Below, in pieces: positions 14,281 through 62,239 of a stretch of 64,000 nucleotides of DNA (positions within the stretch are counted from its first letter, which is position 1; each line of letters opens with the position of its first letter). Origin of the DNA: Pseudomonas sp. LFM046 (GTDB lineage: Bacteria; Pseudomonadota; Gammaproteobacteria; Pseudomonadales; Pseudomonadaceae); assembly GCF_000949385.2 (NCBI RefSeq), contig NZ_JYKO02000001.1, positions 3,854,770 through 3,918,769 of the forward strand, written 5' to 3'. Below the pieces are notes generated by a model, which saw only the letters and a program-made list of their open reading frames with translations, was not told the DNA's origin and searched no databases. The position numbers and the translations under genes are program-made.

Positions 14281-16062
14281 TCACCGCTGCGCTTCCTCCT
14301 CCTGCACCCCGAACTGCAGTTCCGCCAGCCGCGCATAGAGCGGACTGCTGGCCACCAGCTGCGCATGGCGACCAATCGCCACCACCCTGCCCCGCTCCAT
14401 CACCGCAATACGATCGGCGTTCTGCACCGTGGCCAGCCGGTGGGCGATCACCAGCGTGGTGCGTCCGCTCATCAGGGTCGGCAGGGCTTGCTGGATCAAG
14501 TGTTCGCTTTCCGCGTCCAGGGCGCTGGTGGCTTCGTCCAGCAGCAGGATGGGTGCATCCACCAGCAGCGCACGGGCGATGGCCAGGCGCTGTCGCTGGC
14601 CGCCGGACAGGCCGATACCGCCCTCCCCCAGATGCGTCCTGTAGCCCTGGGGCAGGCGGGTGATGAACTCATGGGCGTGGGCCGCACGGGCCGCGGCTTC
14701 CACCTCCGCATCACTGGCCTCCGGGCGGCCGTAACGGATGTTGTCCTCGACACTGCCGAAGAACAGCGCCGGGTTCTGCGATACCAGGGCGAAACAGCGA
14801 CGCAGGTCAGTGGGGTCGAGCCGCCGGAGCTCCACACCTTCCACCAGGAGGCTGCCCTCCTGGGGATCGAAAAAGCGCAGCAGCAACTCGAAGACCGTGG
14901 ACTTGCCCGCGCCCGAAGGTCCTACCAGGGCCAGCGTCTCGCCAGGACGCACCTCCAGGCTGACGCCATCCAGAGCATTGACCTGCGGACGACTGGGATA
15001 AGCGAAACGAATGTCGCGCAACTCGATGCGGCCGCTCACCCGAGGCGGCAGGACCACCTTGCCCTCCTCGGGCGCGACGATGGCGTTGCGCGCCTGCAGC
15101 AGTTCGGCGATGCGCTCCGCCGCACCGGCCGCGCTCTGCAGTTCACCGATGACCTCACTGATGGCACCGAACGCGGCGCCCACGATCAGGCTGTAGAAGA
15201 CGAAGGCTGCCAGGTCGCCCGGCGAAATGCGCCCGGCGATGACATCCATGCCGCCGACCCAGAGCATCACCCCAACGGCCCCCAGCACCAGCCCGATCAC
15301 CAGGGTGATCAGCCACGCGCGCTGCATGATTCGCCGCCGCGCGGTATCGAAGGCGCCTTCCACCGTCGCGGCGAAGCGTTGGCGATCCTGCGCCTGGTGG
15401 TTGTAGGCCTGCACGGTCTTGATCTGCCCCAGGGTCTCGCCCACATAGCTGCCGACATCGGCAATGCGATCCTGGCTCTGCCGCGACAGGCGCCGTACAC
15501 GGCGGCCAAACAGGAGAATGGGCGCCAGCACCAGGGGCAACGCCAGCAACACGATGCCGGTGAGTTTCGGGTTGGTGACGAACAGCAGACCGATGCCACC
15601 CACCAGCATGATGCCGTTGCGCAACGCCATGGACAGCGACGAACCGATCACCGATTGCAGCAGCGTGGTGTCGGCGGTCAGCCGCGACTGGATTTCCGAA
15701 GCGCGGTTGCTCTCGTAGAACCCCGGATGCAGCTGCACCAGGTGATCAAATACGCGCTTGCGGATATCCGCGACGAAGCGCTCGCCGATCCAGGACACCA
15801 GGTAGAAACGCGTGAAGGTGCCGACGGCCAGCGCCAGCACCAGGCCGAAGAAGAGCATGATCGAATGCCGCAGTGCCGCCTGGGACTGGGTGGCCAGGCC
15901 TTGATCCACCAGCAGGCGGATACCCTGCCCCATGGACAGGGTGATGCCGGCGGTGAACAGCAGCGCCAGCAGCGCACCGATCACTCGCCACCGATAAGGC
16001 GCGACGAAACGCCCGGCCATACGCAGTGCAGTGCGCTGTCGAGAAGAAAGGAAGGATGGCAT
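14281..16062 (-). CDS. MsbA/BmrA-type ABC exporter, fused membrane and ATPase domains
   Basis: 593-residue half-transporter expected to form a homodimer. The N-terminal ~320 residues hold six membrane helices; the C-terminal ATPase has Walker A (GPSGAGKST), the Q-loop, signature LSGGQRQR, Walker B (ILLLDEAT) and the switch His in IAHRLATV. It resembles the multidrug/lipid exporter group rather than true MsbA, and the substrate is unknown. ATG at 16062 is preferred over the TTG just before it because GAGG is five bases upstream. It is followed on the other side by a convergent terminator shared with rne. Confidence 0.9.
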   Translation of the reverse strand: MPSFLSSRQRTALRMAGRFVAPYRWRVIGALLALLFTAGITLSMGQGIRLLVDQGLATQSQAALRHSIMLFFGLVLALAVGTFTRFYLVSWIGERFVADIRKRVFDHLVQLHPGFYESNRASEIQSRLTADTTLLQSVIGSSLSMALRNGIMLVGGIGLLFVTNPKLTGIVLLALPLVLAPILLFGRRVRRLSRQSQDRIADVGSYVGETLGQIKTVQAYNHQAQDRQRFAATVEGAFDTARRRIMQRAWLITLVIGLVLGAVGVMLWVGGMDVIAGRISPGDLAAFVFYSLIVGAAFGAISEVIGELQSAAGAAERIAELLQARNAIVAPEEGKVVLPPRVSGRIELRDIRFAYPSRPQVNALDGVSLEVRPGETLALVGPSGAGKSTVFELLLRFFDPQEGSLLVEGVELRRLDPTDLRRCFALVSQNPALFFGSVEDNIRYGRPEASDAEVEAAARAAHAHEFITRLPQGYRTHLGEGGIGLSGGQRQRLAIARALLVDAPILLLDEATSALDAESEHLIQQALPTLMSGRTTLVIAHRLATVQNADRIAVMERGRVVAIGRHAQLVASSPLYARLAELQFGVQEEEAQR

Positions 16063-16116
16063 CAACGCCTCGTTCGGCTCGGCTGGAACCTTACCCCGCG
16101 CTCCAGGCAGAAAGAT

Positions 16117-16557
16117 TCAATCGCGGGCATCGAGGAAACGCCCCGCATGGTCGGGCGTCGGCAGCAGGCAACTGTCGTAGCGGCCAAAGAGCCGGTAGCG
16201 ATTGCGGGCGACGCGGTCGTAGCACCAGTCCCGCAGGCCCAGGGGCAGGAAGCGGAACACCGCCAGCAGCGGCCAAGGCGCCGGCAGTTGGCGAAGAATG
16301 CGTGAAATGGCCTCGGAGCGGACAAACAGTTCGGGGCCCTCGACATAGAGCAGGGTTGCGAAGCTGTCAGCGGGCAGGCCGAACCAGCGCAGGATCGCCT
16401 GCCCTTCCGCAGACTGCACCGCGGCCAGCTTGAACAACCGCGCCCGGTCATGGCGAATGATGAACTTCACCCAGCCATTGCAGAGCTTGCATACCCCGTC
16501 GAAGAGCACGACGCGCTCACCGGGGCGGATATGGGGCGGGTATTCGTTGGCATCCAT
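16117..16557 (-). CDS. DCC-family thiol-disulfide protein (DUF393)
   Basis: 146-residue protein of the DCC family, named for its N-terminal motif: VLFDGVCKLCNGWVKFIIRHD here, with a CxxC-type pair at Cys23 and Cys26. The family is thioredoxin-like, mostly uncharacterised, and this member ends in the common LPLGLRDWCYDRVARNRYRLFG region. No signal peptide. It lies about 50 bases upstream of the exporter gene on the same strand; a functional link is not shown. Confidence 0.85.
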   Translation of the reverse strand: MDANEYPPHIRPGERVVLFDGVCKLCNGWVKFIIRHDRARLFKLAAVQSAEGQAILRWFGLPADSFATLLYVEGPELFVRSEAISRILRQLPAPWPLLAVFRFLPLGLRDWCYDRVARNRYRLFGRYDSCLLPTPDHAGRFLDARD

Positions 16558-16631
16558 CGCGATGCTCCTGCATCCACGGGGAAGTGTCGTCGATGGTAGC
16601 CGATCTCCCCCGCCCCGGGTGAAACGTCGCC

Positions 16632-17759
16632 TCAGTCCACCTCGCCCCAGCCCAGGGGATACAGCAGCTCTTCCTTGTAGCCGGCCCAGACCCGCACCGC
16701 GTCCGGGAATGCCTCGTCCAGGCCCGGGTCGCCGCTGTCCACCAGGAGGGGGCGCCCCTCCAGGGTGCCGAGTTTGCGCTTGGTGGCCACCACGCGCAGG
16801 TGGTCCAGGCCGATGGCACGCAGCACCCGCGGGCTGATCTGCTGGTTGCCACGACCAATGATGTGGCCCTGGCCGCCGATGGCGGTGACCAGCAATCGCG
16901 CGGCATGCCCCTCCACCAGGTCGAACAATTGCGCTTCGGTCACATCCCGAGCAATCACCACGCCGTTCTCGATCACATCCACCCCGAGCAGCGTGGTTTC
17001 CAGGCCCAGGTTGGCCGCCAGGCCATGGAGGGTGGAGCCCGGCCCGAGTACGTAGCGCACGCCCTCCTCCCAGCTTTCGCTGAGCCAGTCGGCAAGCTCC
17101 ACCAGCACCAGTTCCTCCGACTCCATGCCGCCCTGCTTGACGTGCTGCATGAAATGCCCTTCCACCGGCACCGTCAGCTCGCCATACCAGCGCGCGGCGA
17201 CCTTGCCGTCCCGCAGCGCAGCTTCATCCAGGTCACGCACCTCGCCGCTGGCCAGGCGCACCAGGCCGCCTTCCACCAGGCGCCGCGCCAGTTCCCCGGC
17301 CGCGCGCGGGCTGATGGCATAAACCCCGGAATGGATTTTCACCCCGGCGGGGATCCCCAGCACCGGCTGGTCTTCCCGCACCACGGCACTGACGTCCCGC
17401 GCCGTGCCATCACCGCCGGCGAAGAGGATCAGGGCGACACCGACATCCTGCAGGGCCGCTACGGCATGGCGAGTATCGTCGGCGCACGTGAGCGGCCCCT
17501 CGAGGTGACCCAGAACCCGGTGCGCAAAGCCCATCTCCGCCAGCAGGTCGGCGCCCATGGGGCCGGGAAAGGTGAGGAACTGGATACGTCCGACGAGCGG
17601 CAGCAGGCATTCCAGGGCCAGCCGGGTTCGTGCTGTCGCTCGGGGCTCGGCGCCTCTGGCAAGGGCTTCTTCGGCGACGCCGTCGCTACCCTTGAGCGCG
17701 GCTGGCCCGCCCAGGCCGGCCAGGGGATTGATGATCAGGCCCATATGGAATGCGGACAT
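16632..17759 (-). CDS. ATP-NAD kinase-like (NAD kinase superfamily) protein
   Basis: 375-residue protein of the ATP-NAD/AcoX kinase group. It shows MGLIINPLAGLGG at the N-terminus and the diagnostic LFAGGDGTARDV (GGDGT motif), then GIPAGVKIHSGVYAISPRAAG and GGQGHIIGRGNQQISP. Related proteins sit near acetoin or other catabolic genes, but no such context is visible here, so the phosphorylated substrate is open. I start at MSAFHMG (17759), with GAGGTAAGT before the ATG, rather than 42 bases upstream. Confidence 0.82.
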   Translation of the reverse strand: MSAFHMGLIINPLAGLGGPAALKGSDGVAEEALARGAEPRATARTRLALECLLPLVGRIQFLTFPGPMGADLLAEMGFAHRVLGHLEGPLTCADDTRHAVAALQDVGVALILFAGGDGTARDVSAVVREDQPVLGIPAGVKIHSGVYAISPRAAGELARRLVEGGLVRLASGEVRDLDEAALRDGKVAARWYGELTVPVEGHFMQHVKQGGMESEELVLVELADWLSESWEEGVRYVLGPGSTLHGLAANLGLETTLLGVDVIENGVVIARDVTEAQLFDLVEGHAARLLVTAIGGQGHIIGRGNQQISPRVLRAIGLDHLRVVATKRKLGTLEGRPLLVDSGDPGLDEAFPDAVRVWAGYKEELLYPLGWGEVD

Positions 17760-52466: not shown

Positions 52467-53165
52467 TCACTCCTCCTCGAAATACTCCGCGAAAAACCTG
52501 TCCAGCTCCCCCTCGTAGCTGTCCAGGGAATACAGCGTGTCCGCTGCCAGCAGGTCCAGCAGGATCAGGCCATTGAGGCTGGAATCCTCCTCGGCGGCGG
52601 CGCGCAGGCGGCCGGCCATGCCCAGATTGACCAGCCGCAGGTTGCGGTACAGCTCGCGCAGGCCATCCATCGCCCAATCCGGCTCCAACCCGCGCCCCTG
52701 GCGAAGGTGCTGGCCCAGCAGGTAGGTACCGAGGGAGCGATAGAGGGTCTCAGCCGAGGTGCTGAACGGCCAGTGGAACCAGGCCATGGCCCGCAGCATC
52801 CGGGTGTGGGGACAACCGCTGGTCGCCCCGAGCAACCCCAGCAACGACCCTACGGCCCGCTGCAGGGTGGTCTTCTGGCGGATCTCCCGGTCGCGACAGG
52901 ACACGGTCACCAGGACCTCCTCGTACGACGGCGAGTTCGCCAGCATTGCCACTGGTCGCGCCAGCGCACGGGCGAAGGGACAATCACGCACCTCTGCCGC
53001 CTTCAGCGGGCAATGGCTGCATTGCTGGAACTCCAGCCGCGCCCAGTCCGGGGCATCCTCCGGGGGATGTGGCGCCACCACGTCCACCTCATGGACCCAG
53101 AGGCGGTCATCGGGGAAATGGAATGCGTAGCGAACCGGCGCCTCTGTCCTTGCTTTCGGCTCCAT
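52467..53165 (-). CDS. Unrecognised Cys-rich protein divergent from the signalling operon
   Basis: 232 residues, no family I can assign. It starts MEPKARTEAPVRYAFHFPDD and has a cysteine cluster FQQCSHCPLKAAEVRDCPFARA (about residues 47-66) plus GCPHTRMLRAMAWFHW at mid length, which could bind a metal or cluster. The second half is helical. Pseudomonads carry similar sequences as uncharacterised proteins (a DUF6901-type name is possible). It is divergent from the kinase gene with 165 bases between. Confidence 0.65.
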   Translation of the reverse strand: MEPKARTEAPVRYAFHFPDDRLWVHEVDVVAPHPPEDAPDWARLEFQQCSHCPLKAAEVRDCPFARALARPVAMLANSPSYEEVLVTVSCRDREIRQKTTLQRAVGSLLGLLGATSGCPHTRMLRAMAWFHWPFSTSAETLYRSLGTYLLGQHLRQGRGLEPDWAMDGLRELYRNLRLVNLGMAGRLRAAAEEDSSLNGLILLDLLAADTLYSLDSYEGELDRFFAEYFEEE

Positions 53166-53330: not shown

Positions 53331-54605
53331 ATGGATAGCAGCCCTATGGACTTTGCCGGAGCTCTGGTCGAACAGATCGAGGTGGGCGTCATCCTTCTCG
53401 ACCATGACCTGCGAATCCTTCACTGGAACACCTTCGTCAGCCAACGCAGCGGCAAGGCACTGGCCCCGGCGCGCGGCCAACCGCTGGTCAGCGTGTTCCC
53501 GGAAGCCGACACCAACCGCCTCGAACAGATGGTCGCCAAGGCGCGGGACGAGGGCCTGCATGCCTACACCCACTGGCGCGAAGACCCCTACCTGATCCAG
53601 ATGCACTATGGCCCCGAAGGCCAGACCAGCCCGCTGCGGCTGCAAAGCACCCTGTTCTTCCCCTTCGACTGCCAGGGTCAGCGCTGCTTCGGCCTGCTGC
53701 TCTACGACACCACCGAGTTCGCCCGCTCCAACGAGGAACTGACCACCGCCCTCAACGCCCTGGGCAGCAAGCAGTTGGAGCAGGAACAGCTGATGCACAA
53801 GCTGGAAAAGGCCAACGCCCAGCTGCTGCAATCGGAAAAGCTCGCCGCCATCGGCCAGCTCGCCGCGGGCGTGGCCCACGAGATCAACAACCCCATTGGC
53901 TACGTCTTCTCCAACCTCAAGACCCTGACCGGCTACGTCAACGACCTGCTGCGCATCGTCGACGCCGTGGACGGCGTCAGCAGCCTGGACGAGCTCCAGC
54001 AGCTCAAGCGCAGCCTCGAATACGACTACATCCGCAATGACGTCGAGGCGCTGATCCACGAATCCGAGGACGGCATCGAGCGGGTCAAGAAGATCATCAC
54101 CGCCCTCAAGGACTTCTCCCACATCGAAGAGGAGGAATTCCGCGCGGCAGACCTGCACAAGGGCTTCGACAGCACCCTCAACCTGGTGAACAACGAGCTC
54201 AAGTACAAGGCCGAAGTGGTGCGGGAATATGGCGACCTGCCGCCGGTGGAGTGCATTCCCTCGCAGATCAACCAGGTGGTCATGAACCTGCTGATCAACG
54301 CTGCCCACGCCATCGAGGGTTTCGGCCGCATCTCGCTGCGCAGCAGCCACGAGGGCGACTGGATCTGGCTGGAAGTGGAAGACAACGGCAAGGGCATCGA
54401 CCCGGCCATCCTCAACCGCATCTACGAACCCTTCTTCACCACCAAGCCCGTGGGCAAGGGCACGGGGCTCGGCCTCGCGCTCTCCTACAACATCGTGCAG
54501 AAACACAATGGGCGCATCGAAGTCTTCAGCAGTCCCGGTCAGGGCACCCGCTTCCGTGTCTGGCTGCCCACGCGCCAGCCCCTGCCGGACGGAGCGCCCA
54601 CATGA
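53331..54605 (+). CDS. Soluble PAS-domain sensor histidine kinase
   Basis: 424-residue kinase without membrane helices. An N-terminal PAS domain (VEQIEVGVILLDHDLRILHWN onward), a coiled-coil, the phosphoacceptor motif LAAGVAHEINNPIGYVFSN with His183, and an ATPase domain with N-box (NLLINAAHAIEG), G1 (DNGKGID) and GTGLGLAL. The EINNP type of H-box is typical of kinases that feed CheY-like or RpfG-like regulators. Its stop overlaps the next gene by four bases. Signal unknown. Confidence 0.88.
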   Translation: MDSSPMDFAGALVEQIEVGVILLDHDLRILHWNTFVSQRSGKALAPARGQPLVSVFPEADTNRLEQMVAKARDEGLHAYTHWREDPYLIQMHYGPEGQTSPLRLQSTLFFPFDCQGQRCFGLLLYDTTEFARSNEELTTALNALGSKQLEQEQLMHKLEKANAQLLQSEKLAAIGQLAAGVAHEINNPIGYVFSNLKTLTGYVNDLLRIVDAVDGVSSLDELQQLKRSLEYDYIRNDVEALIHESEDGIERVKKIITALKDFSHIEEEEFRAADLHKGFDSTLNLVNNELKYKAEVVREYGDLPPVECIPSQINQVVMNLLINAAHAIEGFGRISLRSSHEGDWIWLEVEDNGKGIDPAILNRIYEPFFTTKPVGKGTGLGLALSYNIVQKHNGRIEVFSSPGQGTRFRVWLPTRQPLPDGAPT

Positions 54606-55948
54606 CCGAAGCCCCGTGCCGCCCGACCCTGCTGCTGGTGGATGACGAGGAAAACATCCTCAGCGCCCTGCGCCGGGTCCTGCGCGGCGAGCCCTACGAC
54701 CTGCTCACCGCGACCAGTGGCAGTGCTGCCCTGGACATGCTGGCCGGGCAGCAGGTTGACCTGGTGGTCTCCGACGCCCGCATGCCCGGTCTCGACGGCC
54801 CCAGCCTGCTGGCCGAGGTGCAACGGCGCTGGCCCGGCACCGTGCGCATCCTCCTCACCGGCGCCGCCGACCTGGACACCAGCATCCGCGCCATCAACCA
54901 GGGGCAGATCTACCGCTACCTGGGCAAACCCTGGAATGACGACGAACTGCGCTTCACCCTGCGACAGGCCCTCGCGCACCAACATGCCGAACGCGAGCAC
55001 CGACGCCTGGAGAGCCTCACCCTGGAGCAGAACCAGCGGCTGCACGAACTCAACGCCAGCCTGGAACAACGGGTCGTCGACCGCACCGCCGAGCTGCAGC
55101 AGACCGCCGACATGCTCGACCTCGCCTACGACGAATTGCGGCGCAGCTACGTAACCGCCACCGAAGTCTTCTCCTCCCTGCTTGCCCAGCGCCTGCCGGG
55201 AGACACGCAGGGCAACGCCCAGGTCATCGCCTTGGTCCGGGCCTTCGCGGCCGAGCACCAGTTGCCGGAGACCGACCGACGAGACCTGGCCATGGCCGCC
55301 GCCCTCTACAACCTCGGCAAGCTGACCTGGGACGACCAGTTGCTGAACCGCCCCAGCGACCTGATGCACCGTGAGGAGCGCGAACGTTACGTCCGCTACC
55401 CGGCCCTTGGCGAAAGCCTGCTGATGGCCCTGGAGCCCCTGCACGATGCCGGCCGGCTGATCCGCCATCACCAGGAGCGCTGGAACGGCACCGGCTTCCC
55501 CGACCAGTTGCGCGGCGAAGACATCCCCTTCGGCGCCCGGCTGCTCAAACTGGCGGTGGATTTCGTCGAGCTGCAATTCGGCCTGGTGCTGCAACGGGAA
55601 GTGCCGCGCCAGGAAGCCCTGCAGTTCCTCACCCGCTACGCCGGACGCCTCTACGACCCCGAGCTCTGCCGGCTCTTCACCGACTTCTGCACCCGCAGCG
55701 CGCCGGACCTGCTGGATGCGACCGCCGGCATCCTCGCCGTGGATACCCGACGCCTGGAACCGGGCATGGTCCTGGCGCGCAACCTCCAGGCCGATAGCGG
55801 GATGCTCCTGCTCAACGCCGGCAAGCAGCTCAGCCGCGCGCTGATCGACAAGCTCATCGCCTTCGAGGCCAGCGAAGGCGCGCGCTACACCCTCCATATC
55901 CGCCAGCCCGAGGCTGAAGCGGCACCGGCCAAGGAGCAGACATCATGA
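54602..55948 (+). CDS. Response regulator with degenerate HD-GYP domain
   Basis: 448 residues. REC domain with acceptor Asp58 in VVSDARMPGLDG and the KPW end typical of RpfG-type regulators, coiled-coil near 140-190, then an HD-GYP-related fold. The diagnostic HD pair is replaced by Tyr236-Asn237 (AALYNLGKLTWDD), and HHxxxDGxGYP is HHQERWNGTGFP (His289-His290). Loss of the metal-ligand HD suggests no phosphodiesterase activity, so a binding or scaffold role is more likely. GGAG precedes the ATG, which overlaps the kinase gene; the stop overlaps the next ATG by four bases. Confidence 0.85.
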   Translation: MTEAPCRPTLLLVDDEENILSALRRVLRGEPYDLLTATSGSAALDMLAGQQVDLVVSDARMPGLDGPSLLAEVQRRWPGTVRILLTGAADLDTSIRAINQGQIYRYLGKPWNDDELRFTLRQALAHQHAEREHRRLESLTLEQNQRLHELNASLEQRVVDRTAELQQTADMLDLAYDELRRSYVTATEVFSSLLAQRLPGDTQGNAQVIALVRAFAAEHQLPETDRRDLAMAAALYNLGKLTWDDQLLNRPSDLMHREERERYVRYPALGESLLMALEPLHDAGRLIRHHQERWNGTGFPDQLRGEDIPFGARLLKLAVDFVELQFGLVLQREVPRQEALQFLTRYAGRLYDPELCRLFTDFCTRSAPDLLDATAGILAVDTRRLEPGMVLARNLQADSGMLLLNAGKQLSRALIDKLIAFEASEGARYTLHIRQPEAEAAPAKEQTS

Positions 55949-56481
55949 TCAACATCCAACTGGTGGACGACGAACCCCAGATCCTCACGGCCCTGCAACG
56001 TCTGCTGCGCCCCCAGGGCTGGAGCCTGCACCTGTTCGACAACCCCGAGGAAGCGCTGTCGGCATTGGCCGAGCACCAGTACGCCGCCATCGTCTGCGAC
56101 CTCAACATGCCGCAACTGGACGGCCTCAACTACCTGCAGTTCGCCCGCCAACGCCAGCCCGACGCCGTGCGCCTGCTGCTCAGCGCCCATGGCGACCGCG
56201 CCACCCTCATGCAGGCGATCAACCGCGCCGAGGTCTACCGCTTCCTGTCCAAGCCCTGGGTGAACTACGAGATAGAAACCGCACTGCAGGCCGCCGTCGA
56301 CCTCTACCTGCTGCGCGACGAGAACCGGCGTTTGCTGGAACAGGTGCGCGGCCAGCAGCACACCCTGGACCGCCAGCGCCGTGAACTGCTGCGCCTGGAA
56401 GCCGAGCACCCGGGCCTGACCCGCGTGCGCCGCGACCACGACGGCGCGGTGCTGCTGGACGGTTACGACCTGGACGACTGA
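55945..56481 (+). CDS. Stand-alone REC response regulator with C-terminal helix
   Basis: 178-residue regulator. REC domain (residues 1-120) with acidic pair Asp8-Asp9 and acceptor Asp52 in AIVCDLNMPQLDG; the switch region SAHGD and FLSKPW match the preceding gene's REC. A long helix follows and then a short tail VRRDHDGAVLLDGYDLDD without DNA-binding domain. AAGGAG lies eight bases before the ATG. It is one of three related REC domains in this operon. Confidence 0.85.
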   Translation: MINIQLVDDEPQILTALQRLLRPQGWSLHLFDNPEEALSALAEHQYAAIVCDLNMPQLDGLNYLQFARQRQPDAVRLLLSAHGDRATLMQAINRAEVYRFLSKPWVNYEIETALQAAVDLYLLRDENRRLLEQVRGQQHTLDRQRRELLRLEAEHPGLTRVRRDHDGAVLLDGYDLDD

Positions 56482-56524: not shown

Positions 56525-59500
56525 ATGGCCAACCACAACCCCAACCGCAACCTCAGCTTCCAGGTCTACCTGCACTGCCTGGCGTTCGCCCTGATGGCCC
56601 TGGGCTGCGTCAGCCTGATCGCCTACCTGTTCGAATCGAACCCGGCCCGCCACGAACTGGTGCTCCTGCCCGACAGCGCCCTGCTCACCATCCTCGCCGG
56701 GGCAGCCCTGCTCACCGCCACCCGCGGCATTCGCCGGTTGTCCCTGTTGGCCAGCCTGGCGCTGCTCGCCCTCGCCGGCTACAGCCTCGGGCACAACATC
56801 CTCACCGGCGGCAGCGAGCATGGCCGCTCACTGATCAGCGGCTACTGGCGGGTCCGCAGCGAACTGGCCATAGTCGCCTGCCTGTTCGGCCTGGCCATGC
56901 TCCTGGCCGTGACGCGCCACGGCGGCCGCTGGCTCAGCCAACTCTGCGGCCTCACCCTGATCGGCCTTGCGCTGACGTCCCAGCTGTCCCTGCTGGGCGC
57001 CAGCCACGCGCTTGCACGCTTCGCCCTCCGCCCTGAATCCGGGCATGTCGCCAACCTCTTCGTCACCCTGCTAGGGGCCTCCGTGCTGGTGCTCTGCGCC
57101 CTGCCGGAGGACCGCCGGCGCCTGCTCGACCGGCGCAGCATGGTCACCGGGATGCTGGGCACCCTCGCCACCTGCATCGGCTGGTTCCTGCTCAGCCAGA
57201 ACGAAATCGCCACCCTCAATGCCCACAGCCACCAACTGCTATTGCGCGCGCAGTCTTCCATCGAGAACACCCTCACCGTGCGCCTGCAGCTGGTGCAGCG
57301 CATGGCGGAGCGCTGGCAGAGCCTTCACAGCCTGCCGAACGAGGCCCTCTGGGAGCAGGAGGCCGGCAGCTACTTGCGGGACTTCCCCAACATCAACCTG
57401 ATCACCCTGCTCGACCCCGAGCTCAGGCCGCTCCGTCAGAGGGTCCGCCATGAACAGGCCGATGACTGGCTGAAGCGCTTCCTCGCCCAGAACGACGTGC
57501 GTGACTGGCTGCTACAGGTGGGCCAGGGCAGCCAAGCGCAGATGAGCGCGGCACAGAATTTCAGCTCGGACAACAGCGTCACCCTGGTGGCGACTCCCGT
57601 GCACATCGAAGGCCAGCCCACCGCCCTGCTGGTGGCCAGCCTGAACATCGGCGCCACCCTGGACAGTCAGTTGGGACGCGACCTGGACGGCTTCGTGCTG
57701 GAGGTATTCGAAGGCTCAAGGCGCATCTACGAGTCCCGCACCGGCGGCGACGGCCGCAGCCTGTTCCCAGTGGGAGAACAGAGCACTGACCTGGGCCCCG
57801 AGGGCCGCTGGCGGATGCGCACCTTCCAGACCCTGCCGCGCCAGGACTACGCCACCGTTTACTTGCCGCCGCTGTTCATGCTCTTCGGCCTCTGCTTCAC
57901 CTTCCTGCTGATGGTCAGCCAGAGCTTTGCCCGCCTGGCCATCGAACGCAGCCAGCGTCTGCGCGAAAGCAATCGTGAACTGGAGCTGAGCCTGCAACAC
58001 CAGGCCCGCCTGCAGATGCAGAACCAGCGGATCATGGACCACTCCATGGACGTGCTCTGTTCCATGGACGAGGACGAGTGCTTCACCCAGGTCAGCCCCT
58101 CCTGCCATACCGTGCTCGGCTACTGGCCCGAGGAGATGATCGGCCGCCGCTTCACGGAGTTCGTCCTGGCCGAAGACCGCGAGCGCACACGGGGCGACAT
58201 CCAGGCGATCATCGATGGCGAATCCTGGGAGGCGGTCCGCAATCGCTGCCAGCGCAAGGATGGCAGCGTGGTCCACCTGCTCTGGTCCATCGGCTGGTCT
58301 GAAAGCGAGCGCACCCTCTTCGCCGTCGCCCACGACATCACCGGCCTGGTGCGCCACGAAGCCTACGCGGAAGACCAGCGCGACATCCTCAGCATGATCT
58401 CCACCGACCAGCCGCTGCCGGACATCCTCAAGGCCATCTGCCTGATGAGTGAAACCCTGCAGCCCGCCACCCTGTGCTCGGTGCTGCTGGTGGATGGCGA
58501 CCATAAACGCCTGCGTCTCGGCGCTGCGCCGAGCCTGCCGCATAGCTACCGGCAATCCCTCGACGGCTTGGCCATCGGGCCGCTCGCGGGCGCTTGCGGC
58601 ACCGCCGTGTTCCGCCGGCAGATGGTGGTCAGCACCGACATCCGCGAAGACCCGCTCTGGCACGAACACCGCGACCTCGCCCTGCGCCATGGGCTGCACG
58701 CCTGCTGGGCGATCCCGTTGATCTCCCACCACGGCGACGTACTCGGCACCTTCGCCGTCCAGCTGCGCCAGCCCTGTGCGCCGGACGACGAGGCGCTGCA
58801 ATTGATCGGCACCGCCGGGCAACTGGCGGCCATCGCCATCGAGCGGCAGAACGATCGCCTGCGCCTGCAGGAAAGCGAACAGCGCTACCGCTCGCTCTTC
58901 ATCTTCAACCCCGACCCGGTGTTCTCCTTCGACCGTGAAGGGCGCTATCTCAGCCTCAACCAGGCCGGCAGCGAACTGATCGACTACCGCGCCGCGGAGC
59001 TGATCGGCCAACCCTTCTCCACCCTGGTGCTGGACGAGGACATCGGCCGCGTGCACCAACATCTGCGCGCCGCCCTCGACGGTACGGCGCAGCACTATGA
59101 GGTCCGTTGGCGCAGCCGTGCCGGCCAGGTTCTCGAACTGGACATCACCAACCTGCCCATCGTGGTCGAAGGGGAAATTGTCGGGGTATTCGGCATCGCC
59201 AAGGACATCGGCGAACGCAACCGCATGACCCGCACACTGCGCGAAACCCTGGCCCAGTCCGAGCGCAAGGCCCAGCAGTTGCGGGGCCTCAGCGAAACCG
59301 CGCTGCGCATCGGCGGCATCCTCGATACCCGCGCCCTGCTGGAGTTCATGTGCGAACAATTGCGCTTGCTGGTGGGAGCCCACCAGTCGCTGCTGGGCCT
59401 GGCTGAGGCACCGGGGATGGAAGCGGTGTCCCTGTCCGCCAAGTACCAGGCCTGGGAAGCGCCGCACTTGTCCGCCAAGGGCCGGGCGCTCAGCAACCGC

Positions 59501-62239
59501 GCCGGCGCCGGCTACCAGCCGGTCCTGCTGACCCGTGCCGAACTCGCCGTCCCCGGCGACCAGGCCAGCGGCCAACTGCCCCTGAAAGGTTGGCTCGCAG
59601 TGCCCCTGGTCGACCATGGCGGGCGCAAGCTCGGCCTGCTCCAGCTCTCCGACAAGTTCGACGGCGACTTCGACCAGGACGATCTCGCCATCGCCCAGCA
59701 GTTCGCCCAGATGGCGGTGGCCGCCCTGGAAAACATCCGCCTGGTCCAGCAGGTGCTTTCCGGCGAGCAGCGCCTGCAGGAGCAACTGGACTTCACCTCG
59801 GCCATCACCGACAGCGTGGGCGAGGGCCTGCTGGCGGTGGATCGCCAGGGCCGCCTGAACTTCGTCAACCCCGCCGGCGCCGAACTTCTCGGACAGAGCG
59901 TCGAGGCCCTGCTGGGCCAAGCCCTCGCCGAGCACCTGCCGCTGGACCTCTACAGCGCGCCGGTCACTGGCAGCCGCCATGGCGAAGTCAGCCTGGCGGG
60001 CGACCGCCATATCGCCTACGACTGCGCGCCGCTGCTGCACCCCCAGACCCTCGGCGGCTGGGTCATCGCCTTCCGGGACGTCAGCCGCGCCAAGGAATCC
60101 GAGAAGCAGCTGCGCATCCTCCAGCGCAGCATCGAGGCCAGCTACAACGGCGCGCTGATCTGTGATGCCAGGGCCGACGACCTGCCCATCATCTACGTCA
60201 ACCCGGCCTTCGAGCGCATCACCGGCTACACCGCCGGCGAAGCGCTGGGCAACAACTGCCGCTTCCTTCAGGGCGCCGACCGGGAGCAGCCGGGCGTCGC
60301 CGAAATCCGCCATGCCCTGACGGAAAAGCGCGAGGTCCACGTGGTCCTGCGCAACTTCCGCAAGGACGGCACGCCCTTCTGGAACGACCTCTACATCGCC
60401 CCGGTGCCCGACGAGCACGGCGAGATCACCCACTTCATCGGCGTGCAGAACGACATTTCCGTACAGAAGCGCGTGGAGTCCGAACTGGCCTACAACGCCA
60501 GCCACGACGTACTCACCGGCCTGCCCAACCGTTCCCTGATGGAGGACCGTCTGCGCCAGGGCTACCAGATCAGCCAGCGCTACCAGCGCAAACTGGCGGT
60601 GATGTTCATCGACCTCGACGGCTTCAAGCCCATCAACGACTCCATGGGCCACAGCATCGGCGACCAGATCCTGGTGGAAGTGGCGCGCAGATTGAGCCAA
60701 CTGGTACGCCCTGGCGACACCGTGGCGCGCCCGGGGGGTGACGAGTTCATCCTGATCCTGCCGGACCTCGCCCGCGAAGAAGACGTGCTGCAGGTGGCCG
60801 AGCGCGTCATCGACGGCATCGCCCGGCCCTACTCCATCGCCGGCGGCGAGCTGCACATCACCGCCAGCCTGGGCATCGCCCTCGGCGAACTGGGCATGCA
60901 ACAGCCGATGCAGCTGATCCAGCAGGCGGACCTGGCCATGTACAAGGCCAAGAAGCAGGGGCGTAACTGCTACCAGTGGTACACCACCGATCTGGAGCAG
61001 AAAGTCGGCGAGCGCGTGACCCTGCGCAACGAGCTGCAGAAGGCCATCGAGGCCAACGCCTTCATGCTCTATTACCAGCCACAGATCGACGGCCGCAGCG
61101 GCCGCGTCATCGGCTTCGAGGCCCTGCTGCGCTGGCAGCACCCGCAGCAGGGTTTCATCTCCCCGGCCGAATTCGTGCCGGTGGCCGAAGACACCGGGCA
61201 GATCATCCCGCTGAGCGAATGGGTGTTGGCGACCGCGTGCCGCGACTGCCGGGAACTGCTCGATCGCGGCATGACCGGCACCGTGGTGGCGGTGAACATC
61301 TCGGCGGTGCACTTCCAGCGCAACATCTTCGTCGACACCGTGAGGCGCGTCCTCGAAGAGACCCGTCTGCCCGCCGAACTGCTGGAACTGGAGATCACCG
61401 AAACCGTGTTGCTGGACAACGCCGAACGCGCCATCGCCACGCTGCAAGCCCTCAAGACCCTGGGCGTGCGCCTGTCCCTCGATGACTTCGGCACCGGTTT
61501 CTCCAGCCTCAACTACCTCAAGCGCCTGCCCATCGACAAAGTGAAGATCGACCGGGCCTTCGTCCAGGAGATCATCAGCGACCTCCACGACGCCGCCATC
61601 ACCCAGGGCATCATTTCCATGGCCCACCACCTGCGCCTGCGGGTGATCGCCGAAGGGGTGGAAACCGAATCCCAGTTCGCCTTCCTGAAGAAAGGCCACT
61701 GCGACATTTTCCAGGGCTACTACTTCGCCCGGCCCATGCCCTTCGAGCAACTGGACCGGTTCCTCCACGAACACCACAAGAGCCCGGCGGCCTACCTGGA
61801 AACCCGCTCGGGGACGAGCAGCGCCCAGACCCTGCTGTTGCTGGACGACGAGGAGAACATCCTCCGCGCCCTGACCCGCGTGCTGCGCCGCGACGGCTAC
61901 CAGATCTTCACCGCCACCCGCGCCCAGGACGCCTTCGCCCTGCTGGCCAAGCACGATGTCCAGGTGATTCTCTCCGACCAGCGCATGCCGGAAATGAGCG
62001 GCACCGAGTTCCTCAGCCGGGTCAAGGACCTGCACCCGGACACCGTCCGCATCGTGCTGTCCGGCTACACCGACCTGAAGTCCGTGACCGACGCCATCAA
62101 CCAGGGCGCCATCTACAAATTCCTCACCAAACCCTGGGACGACGAACAGCTCCGCGCCGTGATCACCCAGGCGTTCCTCCACCACAGCCAGGCCAAGACC
62201 AAGGAAGAGAACGCGACGGTGGAAAACGATGGCGAATAG
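56525..62239 (+). CDS. Multisensor membrane c-di-GMP protein (LOV-GGDEF-EAL-REC)
   Basis: 1904 residues, exceptionally long. About six N-terminal membrane helices (to ~225), a periplasmic sensor-like stretch with a further helix near 447-467, PAS (~500-620), GAF (~640-780), PAS (~785-905), GAF (~915-1080), PAS (~1090-1190), then a LOV-type PAS with GNNCRFLQGADRE, where Cys1245 is the photo-adduct position, ending NFRKDGTPFWNDLYIAPV. Next GGDEF (1404-1408, ARPGGDEFILIL), EAL (1532-1534, GFEALLRW; DDFGTGFSSLNYL; IAEGVETESQ), and a C-terminal REC with Asp1818 (LSDQRMPEMSG, KFLTKPW). Cyclase and phosphodiesterase motifs look intact. The C-terminal REC is unusual in this class. Confidence 0.9.
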   Translation: MANHNPNRNLSFQVYLHCLAFALMALGCVSLIAYLFESNPARHELVLLPDSALLTILAGAALLTATRGIRRLSLLASLALLALAGYSLGHNILTGGSEHGRSLISGYWRVRSELAIVACLFGLAMLLAVTRHGGRWLSQLCGLTLIGLALTSQLSLLGASHALARFALRPESGHVANLFVTLLGASVLVLCALPEDRRRLLDRRSMVTGMLGTLATCIGWFLLSQNEIATLNAHSHQLLLRAQSSIENTLTVRLQLVQRMAERWQSLHSLPNEALWEQEAGSYLRDFPNINLITLLDPELRPLRQRVRHEQADDWLKRFLAQNDVRDWLLQVGQGSQAQMSAAQNFSSDNSVTLVATPVHIEGQPTALLVASLNIGATLDSQLGRDLDGFVLEVFEGSRRIYESRTGGDGRSLFPVGEQSTDLGPEGRWRMRTFQTLPRQDYATVYLPPLFMLFGLCFTFLLMVSQSFARLAIERSQRLRESNRELELSLQHQARLQMQNQRIMDHSMDVLCSMDEDECFTQVSPSCHTVLGYWPEEMIGRRFTEFVLAEDRERTRGDIQAIIDGESWEAVRNRCQRKDGSVVHLLWSIGWSESERTLFAVAHDITGLVRHEAYAEDQRDILSMISTDQPLPDILKAICLMSETLQPATLCSVLLVDGDHKRLRLGAAPSLPHSYRQSLDGLAIGPLAGACGTAVFRRQMVVSTDIREDPLWHEHRDLALRHGLHACWAIPLISHHGDVLGTFAVQLRQPCAPDDEALQLIGTAGQLAAIAIERQNDRLRLQESEQRYRSLFIFNPDPVFSFDREGRYLSLNQAGSELIDYRAAELIGQPFSTLVLDEDIGRVHQHLRAALDGTAQHYEVRWRSRAGQVLELDITNLPIVVEGEIVGVFGIAKDIGERNRMTRTLRETLAQSERKAQQLRGLSETALRIGGILDTRALLEFMCEQLRLLVGAHQSLLGLAEAPGMEAVSLSAKYQAWEAPHLSAKGRALSNRAGAGYQPVLLTRAELAVPGDQASGQLPLKGWLAVPLVDHGGRKLGLLQLSDKFDGDFDQDDLAIAQQFAQMAVAALENIRLVQQVLSGEQRLQEQLDFTSAITDSVGEGLLAVDRQGRLNFVNPAGAELLGQSVEALLGQALAEHLPLDLYSAPVTGSRHGEVSLAGDRHIAYDCAPLLHPQTLGGWVIAFRDVSRAKESEKQLRILQRSIEASYNGALICDARADDLPIIYVNPAFERITGYTAGEALGNNCRFLQGADREQPGVAEIRHALTEKREVHVVLRNFRKDGTPFWNDLYIAPVPDEHGEITHFIGVQNDISVQKRVESELAYNASHDVLTGLPNRSLMEDRLRQGYQISQRYQRKLAVMFIDLDGFKPINDSMGHSIGDQILVEVARRLSQLVRPGDTVARPGGDEFILILPDLAREEDVLQVAERVIDGIARPYSIAGGELHITASLGIALGELGMQQPMQLIQQADLAMYKAKKQGRNCYQWYTTDLEQKVGERVTLRNELQKAIEANAFMLYYQPQIDGRSGRVIGFEALLRWQHPQQGFISPAEFVPVAEDTGQIIPLSEWVLATACRDCRELLDRGMTGTVVAVNISAVHFQRNIFVDTVRRVLEETRLPAELLELEITETVLLDNAERAIATLQALKTLGVRLSLDDFGTGFSSLNYLKRLPIDKVKIDRAFVQEIISDLHDAAITQGIISMAHHLRLRVIAEGVETESQFAFLKKGHCDIFQGYYFARPMPFEQLDRFLHEHHKSPAAYLETRSGTSSAQTLLLLDDEENILRALTRVLRRDGYQIFTATRAQDAFALLAKHDVQVILSDQRMPEMSGTEFLSRVKDLHPDTVRIVLSGYTDLKSVTDAINQGAIYKFLTKPWDDEQLRAVITQAFLHHSQAKTKEENATVENDGE

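Follow-up and report, generated by a model that had tools for sequence, protein, structure and literature searches.

In the well-studied c-di-GMP enzymes the controlling receivers precede the enzyme domain; the regulators RocR, PvrR and VieA show this REC-EAL order, with the REC in front of the EAL. On the photoreceptor side, roughly 18% of the LOV proteins of bacteria have a GGDEF, either alone or together with an EAL (PMC4844311), and the control of an EAL by a LOV has a precedent in SL2 of Synechococcus elongatus, a LOV-GGDEF-EAL protein that PMC8846402 presents, after Cao (2010), as a blue-light-sensitive phosphodiesterase. The NosP-NosK-NosR system of Burkholderia uses a soluble kinase with a HEINN motif to phosphorylate a regulator that combines a REC with a degenerate HD-GYP, the motifs of NosR reading HG-GTP (PMC12570481). 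PA2572 of Pseudomonas aeruginosa, in turn, is a YN-GYP regulator (PMC3411652).

The window, i.e., the whole stretch of 64,000 nucleotides analysed here, contains on its plus strand, at 56525-62239, a single uninterrupted ORF that translates into a 1904-residue protein with the following features:

56525..62239, plus strand: 1904-aa PAS/GAF-LOV-GGDEF-EAL-REC membrane multisensor (ORF, translation, Pfam, motifs, orthologues)
56540..57202, plus strand: seven predicted TM helices, residues ~6-226 (hydropathy, AlphaFold2 model)
57203..57862, plus strand: predicted extracytoplasmic sensor domain, residues ~227-446, weakly Cache-like (model, dCache_1, Foldseek)
57863..57919, plus strand: TM helix 8, residues 447-465 (hydropathy)
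58025..60079, plus strand: PAS-GAF-PAS-GAF-PAS array, residues ~501-1185, the borders of the second GAF and third PAS being approximate (Pfam)
60089..60460, plus strand: LOV domain, residues ~1189-1312, with the codon of the predicted photoactive Cys1245 at 60257-60259 (motifs, flavin residues, PDB matches)
60497..60967, plus strand: GGDEF domain, residues 1325-1481, with an RxxD inhibitory site; codon of Pro1403 at 60731-60733 (Pfam, motif alignment)
61025..61735, plus strand: EAL domain, residues 1501-1737, with the full catalytic set (Pfam, residue check)
61835..62164, plus strand: C-terminal REC, residues 1771-1880, with D1774, D1775, acceptor D1818 and K1869 (Pfam, residue check)

A sequence-only reading had described this gene as a membrane-bound multisensor with several PAS/GAF modules together with LOV, GGDEF, EAL and REC domains, and the outline is borne out: the frame runs without a stop, eight TM helices are predicted, Pfam recognises four PAS and two GAF stretches, and Cys1245 within GNNCRFLQ, GGDEF at 1404-1408, EAL at 1532 and Asp1818 all lie where they had been placed. 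Further motifs include EALLRW at 1532, DDFGTG at 1653 and the SDQRMP that holds Asp1818; the Pfam E-values are 7e-77 for the EAL, 1e-49 for the GGDEF and 2e-22 for the REC. In fold searches the N-terminal half returns, for the most part, PAS matches along with one weak Cache-type sensor match. Hydropathy places seven TM segments within residues 18-224 and another at 447-465. In the AlphaFold2 model covering residues 1-620 (pLDDT 83), seven TM helices are followed by a mixed alpha/beta region at ~273-440, then by TM helix 8 and a PAS domain; the sensor domain matches dCache_1 weakly (E 0.11) and resembles the KinD sensor domain in Foldseek (4jgq, TMt 0.58). The minus-strand ORF of 1489 aa that overlaps the large gene (57716-62185) looks like an ordinary shadow ORF of GC-rich DNA, because the orthologues keep the plus-strand protein. 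With full-length conservation at the protein level in 12 congeners and the antisense frame read as such a shadow, a chance or frame artefact is ruled out.

The assignment of a canonical LOV domain from GxNCRFLQ and Cys1245 withstood a check of the flavin contacts: Asn1277, Asn1287, Gln1308 and the Arg1246 of NCRFLQ are all present, and an additional LOV Arg can be read directly from the sequence in EIRHAL. The cysteine is kept in 12/12 orthologues, and the cysteine, the two asparagines and the glutamine together in every full-length orthologue, as also in the homologues from Marinobacter, Halomonas, Arsukibacterium and Alkalimonas. A phmmer search of the PDB places short-LOV photoreceptors near the top (7r5n at E 1.6e-38, and 3sw1) and recovers the LOV-GGDEF enzyme 8c05 at E 6.6e-28. 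Hence, on the sequence evidence, we infer blue-light photochemistry for this domain. Three more LOV-like stretches occur in the same genome at E <= 1e-20, one of them in a paralogue (G000:C1:1342362, locus L028) with a REC at both ends and a Leu at the equivalent of Gln1308. This LOV-GGDEF-EAL-REC paralogue type, with Leu replacing the LOV Gln, is found in L028 (4478-8065, plus strand), L024, L031 and L075; its second, N-terminal REC is shown for L028, and the C-terminal REC has lost residues of the phosphorylation site in L024 and L075.

The GGDEF and EAL motifs had both been called intact. For the EAL this holds in full, with 8/8 catalytic positions present (E1532, N1591, E1623, D1653, D1654, K1674, E1710 and Q1730); for the GGDEF it holds literally, but the motif is directly preceded by Pro1403 (codon CCG), where 12/12 orthologues have Leu. 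A Pro at this place occurs in 2/140 GGDEF-like sequences from the fetched loci, a set that held the window gene twice (L001, L036), and it may weaken cyclase activity in this strain. The domain retains the RxxD inhibitory site. The C-terminal REC has the acceptor Asp1818, as claimed, together with D1774, D1775 and K1869. A model of residues 1185-1904 (pLDDT 79, pTM 0.52) shows LOV, GGDEF, EAL and REC each folded; its linkers are of low confidence, that between EAL and REC (construct residues 575-581) falling below pLDDT 50, and the arrangement of the domains is therefore not readable from it. The closest solved structures to the catalytic half are DosP, PA0575 and MorA, with RocR (3sy8) also among the matches; by sequence, the GGDEF-EAL part is nearest to MorA and PA0575.

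What the sequence-only reading missed is the operon, in which the likely phosphodonor is encoded. The large gene closes a four-gene cassette read entirely from the plus strand, in the order PAS-histidine kinase, REC-HD-GYP, solo REC and 1904-aa protein, beside a divergent gene:

52467..53165, minus strand: DUF6901 gene, divergent from the cassette and kept beside it (Pfam; seven fetched loci)
53331..54605, plus strand: soluble histidine kinase, 424 aa, PAS + HisKA + HATPase_c, H-box VAHEINNP with His183 (Pfam, motif)
54602..55948, plus strand: REC-HD-GYP response regulator, acceptor Asp58, degenerate with YN for HD and GFP for GYP (Pfam, NCBIfam, motif)
55945..56481, plus strand: solo receiver, 178 aa, acceptor Asp52 (Pfam Response_reg)

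The kinase/REC-HD-GYP and REC-HD-GYP/REC junctions are 4-base overlaps (the kinase stop and REC-HD-GYP start share ATGA), and a 43-base gap separates the solo REC from the large gene. The HisKA match of the kinase lies slightly below the Pfam cut-off. The REC-HD-GYP protein scores 552 bits against the NosR-family model NCBIfam NF053512 (cut-off 400). Since the motifs expected of an active HD-GYP phosphodiesterase are replaced in it by YN and GFP, it is probably not a phosphodiesterase. A NosP/NO system is ruled out by the cassette having no FIST gene: a FIST-domain NosP gene was not found in it, and the single FIST match in the genome lies at G000:C1:3124615, ~0.7 Mb away. No sites turned up when the surroundings of the cassette were scanned for promoters and terminators.

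The cassette is a stable unit in related genomes. Full-length orthologues of the large protein, at 74-85% identity, occur in 12/17 sampled congeners, and in each of these 12 loci a REC-HD-GYP and a REC precede the large gene, the solo REC being kept in 12/12. Orthologues of both the kinase and the DUF6901 gene are found at the cassette in seven loci (L022, L029, L030, L032, L033, L034 and L076), and the four-gene set extends to a relative of another genus (L022) and to Pseudomonas taeanensis (L076). One congener (G011) has three copies of the large gene, at 84, 75 and 61% identity (L007, L029 and L030), and the two extra copies, L029 and L030, when fetched with wider flanks, each have a complete four-gene set; L030 has an additional solo REC after the large gene. 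Plasmid tblastn yielded partial sensor-GGDEF-EAL similarity, reaching no more than about half of the query length in the rows listed, and a plasmid origin is thus ruled out.

In another set of loci (L021 and L027, and L026 by similarity only) the N-terminal sensor half sits in a separate histidine kinase beside a shorter LOV-GGDEF-EAL-REC protein: at L021:10021-14688 (minus strand) and L027:4572-9689 (plus strand), the sensor region of the 1904-aa protein is fused to HisKA-HATPase_c. The same sensor is wired in cis to the enzyme in one lineage, and in the other it is wired in trans through a kinase, as would be expected if the REC of the enzyme takes kinase input. The multisensor kinase and LOV-GGDEF-EAL-REC genes of L021 are adjoined by a gene (14692-16932, minus strand) for a REC-MshEN-T2SSE protein, i.e., a receiver in one chain with a predicted secretion/pilus ATPase of c-di-GMP-binding type, which is possibly an effector of the same module. 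Similar REC-bearing ORFs of ~747 aa occur in L026, L027 and L077, the Pfam domains being from L021 only. A full-length REC-MshEN-ATPase homologue was not found in the genome of the window (G000), ruling out an adjacent REC-ATPase as a partner there.

The placement of a REC behind an EAL had been called unusual. As a matter of frequency this is right: a search of the phylum with the EAL-REC part (E <= 1e-88) reached 24 genomes, of which two (G106 and G366) were dropped with matches ending before the REC, leaving at least 22/399 sampled genomes, that of the window included. As an oddity it does not stand, for the same order recurs in several gamma- and betaproteobacterial genera. Likewise, the coupling of a blue-light cysteine to a REC in one chain is no stand-alone curiosity: orthologues with the same domain order were found, and the LOV-GGDEF-EAL-REC order is shared by the genus of the window, P. 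taeanensis, Marinobacter, Halomonas, Arsukibacterium and Alkalimonas. Such full-length orthologues and the same order in other genera rule out a unique architecture. In the literature searched for GGDEF-EAL-REC proteins or a C-terminal receiver behind an EAL, nothing relevant came up, be it a characterised protein of the GGDEF-EAL-REC or LOV-GGDEF-EAL-REC order or a description of a c-di-GMP module with one kinase and three receivers.

In a tree of 75 REC domains the EAL-REC receivers stand apart from solo RECs and from those of REC-HD-GYP proteins, across a weakly supported deepest fork; 34/36 rows on the EAL-REC side are EAL-REC, the other two being solo receivers. The REC of the 1904-aa protein falls within this cluster. 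The EAL-REC fusion hence seems to be a single old family and not a series of repeated accidents, a pattern that falls short of proving that it arose once. Among 49 EAL-REC homologues, the Asp and Lys of the REC are kept in 46 and the EAL catalytic set in 42, as against 27 for the GGDEF motif, 25 for the LOV cysteine and 19 for the full Cys-Asn-Asn-Gln. Because the REC and EAL residues are better kept than those of GGDEF and LOV, the core of the family is predicted to be a receiver-controlled phosphodiesterase, and the full LOV persists in a subset of the gammaproteobacterial members, the 1904-aa protein among them. EAL-REC proteins from nine loci, mostly betaproteobacterial (L082, L085, L090, L091, L093, L103, L104, L121 and L123), extend 130-150 aa past the REC; Pfam found no domain in this extension in L082, the one checked.

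The EAL-REC fusion also travels with the other cassette genes. A scan of public genomes gave, among the best 80 matches listed, 21 EAL-REC loci and 59 EAL loci without a REC; a kinase (> 200 bits) and/or a full REC-HD-GYP homologue lay within ~9 kb in 15/21 of the former versus 1/59 of the latter (Fisher p 1.2e-10, in a test that ignores kinship and includes some short contigs). In a separate phylum sample, counted by reading at the same cut-off, 10/20 fetched EAL-REC loci had a kinase and/or a REC-HD-GYP homologue.

Taken together, we favour, with reasonable though far from full confidence, a phosphodiesterase-centred enzyme in which the cassette kinase phosphorylates the receivers, the REC controls the EAL and the LOV adds a blue-light input. 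Briefly, the kinase (53331-54605) would transfer phosphate to three receivers, namely the REC of the REC-HD-GYP protein, the solo REC and, at Asp1818, the C-terminal REC. The phosphorylated C-terminal REC would act on the EAL from the C-terminal side; with the EAL as the conserved catalytic output, c-di-GMP turnover would run mainly towards hydrolysis, and binding of GTP or c-di-GMP by the GGDEF might tune it. Blue light would generate a flavin-Cys1245 adduct whose signal passes along the helix between LOV and GGDEF; this second input was probably added in the gammaproteobacterial subclade, and the membrane, PAS and GAF modules might provide further inputs. The two accessory receiver proteins, one with the degenerate HD-GYP and one a solo REC, would most likely serve as a protein-protein regulator and a phosphate sink. 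Two observations weigh against the kinase link: in the phylum sample, one EAL-REC locus in two has no close kinase homologue nearby, and the interaction of the PA2571 kinase with PA2572 was not seen in two-hybrid assays in P. aeruginosa (PMC3411652), so that neighbours need not be partners. More tentatively, the protein might be a coincidence detector, with blue light at Cys1245 and phosphorylation at Asp1818 jointly setting one EAL site and the kinase also loading a degenerate HD-GYP that docks on the GGDEF.

A different reading, which we regard as rather unlikely, inverts the roles: the protein would be a light-switched bifunctional enzyme with net cyclase activity, its LOV controlling the GGDEF, its EAL secondary and its REC a phosphorylation brake. 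Near relatives do keep an intact GGDEF and the RxxD site, such that net cyclase activity may arise in some state, and the LOV-GGDEF enzyme LadC (8c05) is a strong cyclase switch. Against it stand the poorer conservation of the GGDEF motif relative to the EAL set among the EAL-REC homologues, the Pro1403 peculiar to the window copy and the behaviour of LOV-GGDEF truncations of LOV-GGDEF-EAL proteins, which showed no light-regulated cyclase activity, control of the EAL being proposed instead (PMC10396304). We find it quite improbable that the LOV is a flavin redox or scaffold PAS and no light receptor, with the cassette a purely phospho-signalling phosphodiesterase module: several homologues have indeed lost Gln1308 (CNNL in L028, L057, L024 and L075), others drop the whole LOV motif yet keep the EAL-REC, and RmcA has a flavin PAS without the LOV cysteine (PMC8846402), but the complete residue set persists in every full-length orthologue and in the four other genera named above. 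Finally, a C-terminal REC that serves as a phosphate sink or for dimerisation, of no consequence to the enzyme, is comparably doubtful, for although the cassette already has a solo REC and a low-confidence linker joins EAL to REC in the model, the REC stays covalently behind the EAL across beta- and gammaproteobacteria with residues among the best conserved.

A conserved EAL-REC family associated with one type of kinase and a degenerate HD-GYP offers a defined system for studying: (i) how a phosphorylation signal is passed to an EAL by a receiver behind it; (ii) what degenerate HD-GYP regulators do; (iii) how light and phosphorylation combine in one chain. Members with and without a LOV lend themselves to a comparison of how light input evolved.

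Set against the described systems, the 1904-aa protein resembles SL2 in having a canonical LOV right before a GGDEF-EAL with a complete EAL set, and it is likewise predicted to be a light-controlled phosphodiesterase; beyond this it has a C-terminal REC, an array of PAS and GAF modules and eight TM helices, neither a REC nor a kinase cassette being described for SL2 in the review PMC8846402. LadC (PMC10396304) similarly has a LOV joined to a GGDEF via a helical linker but lacks both the EAL and the REC. The cassette kinase shares the HEINN motif of NosK and the REC-HD-GYP protein passes the NosR-family model; in contrast to NosP-NosK-NosR, the cassette lacks a FIST/NosP gene, its kinase includes a PAS, and it also encodes a solo REC together with the LOV-GGDEF-EAL-REC enzyme. 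The PA2571-PA2572 pair is alike by gene type, rather than by sequence orthology, in being a kinase with a REC-YN-GYP regulator that has the same YN substitution, whereas its neighbour is the chemoreceptor PA2573 and not REC and EAL-REC genes. RocR, PvrR and VieA are receiver-controlled EAL phosphodiesterases as proposed here, and differ in that the REC of the 1904-aa protein is C-terminal, behind the EAL. The 1904-aa protein is a variation on two known kinds, LOV-GGDEF-EAL enzymes and receiver-controlled EAL enzymes, and the conserved kinase/REC-HD-GYP/REC cassette in which it lies adds to its interest.
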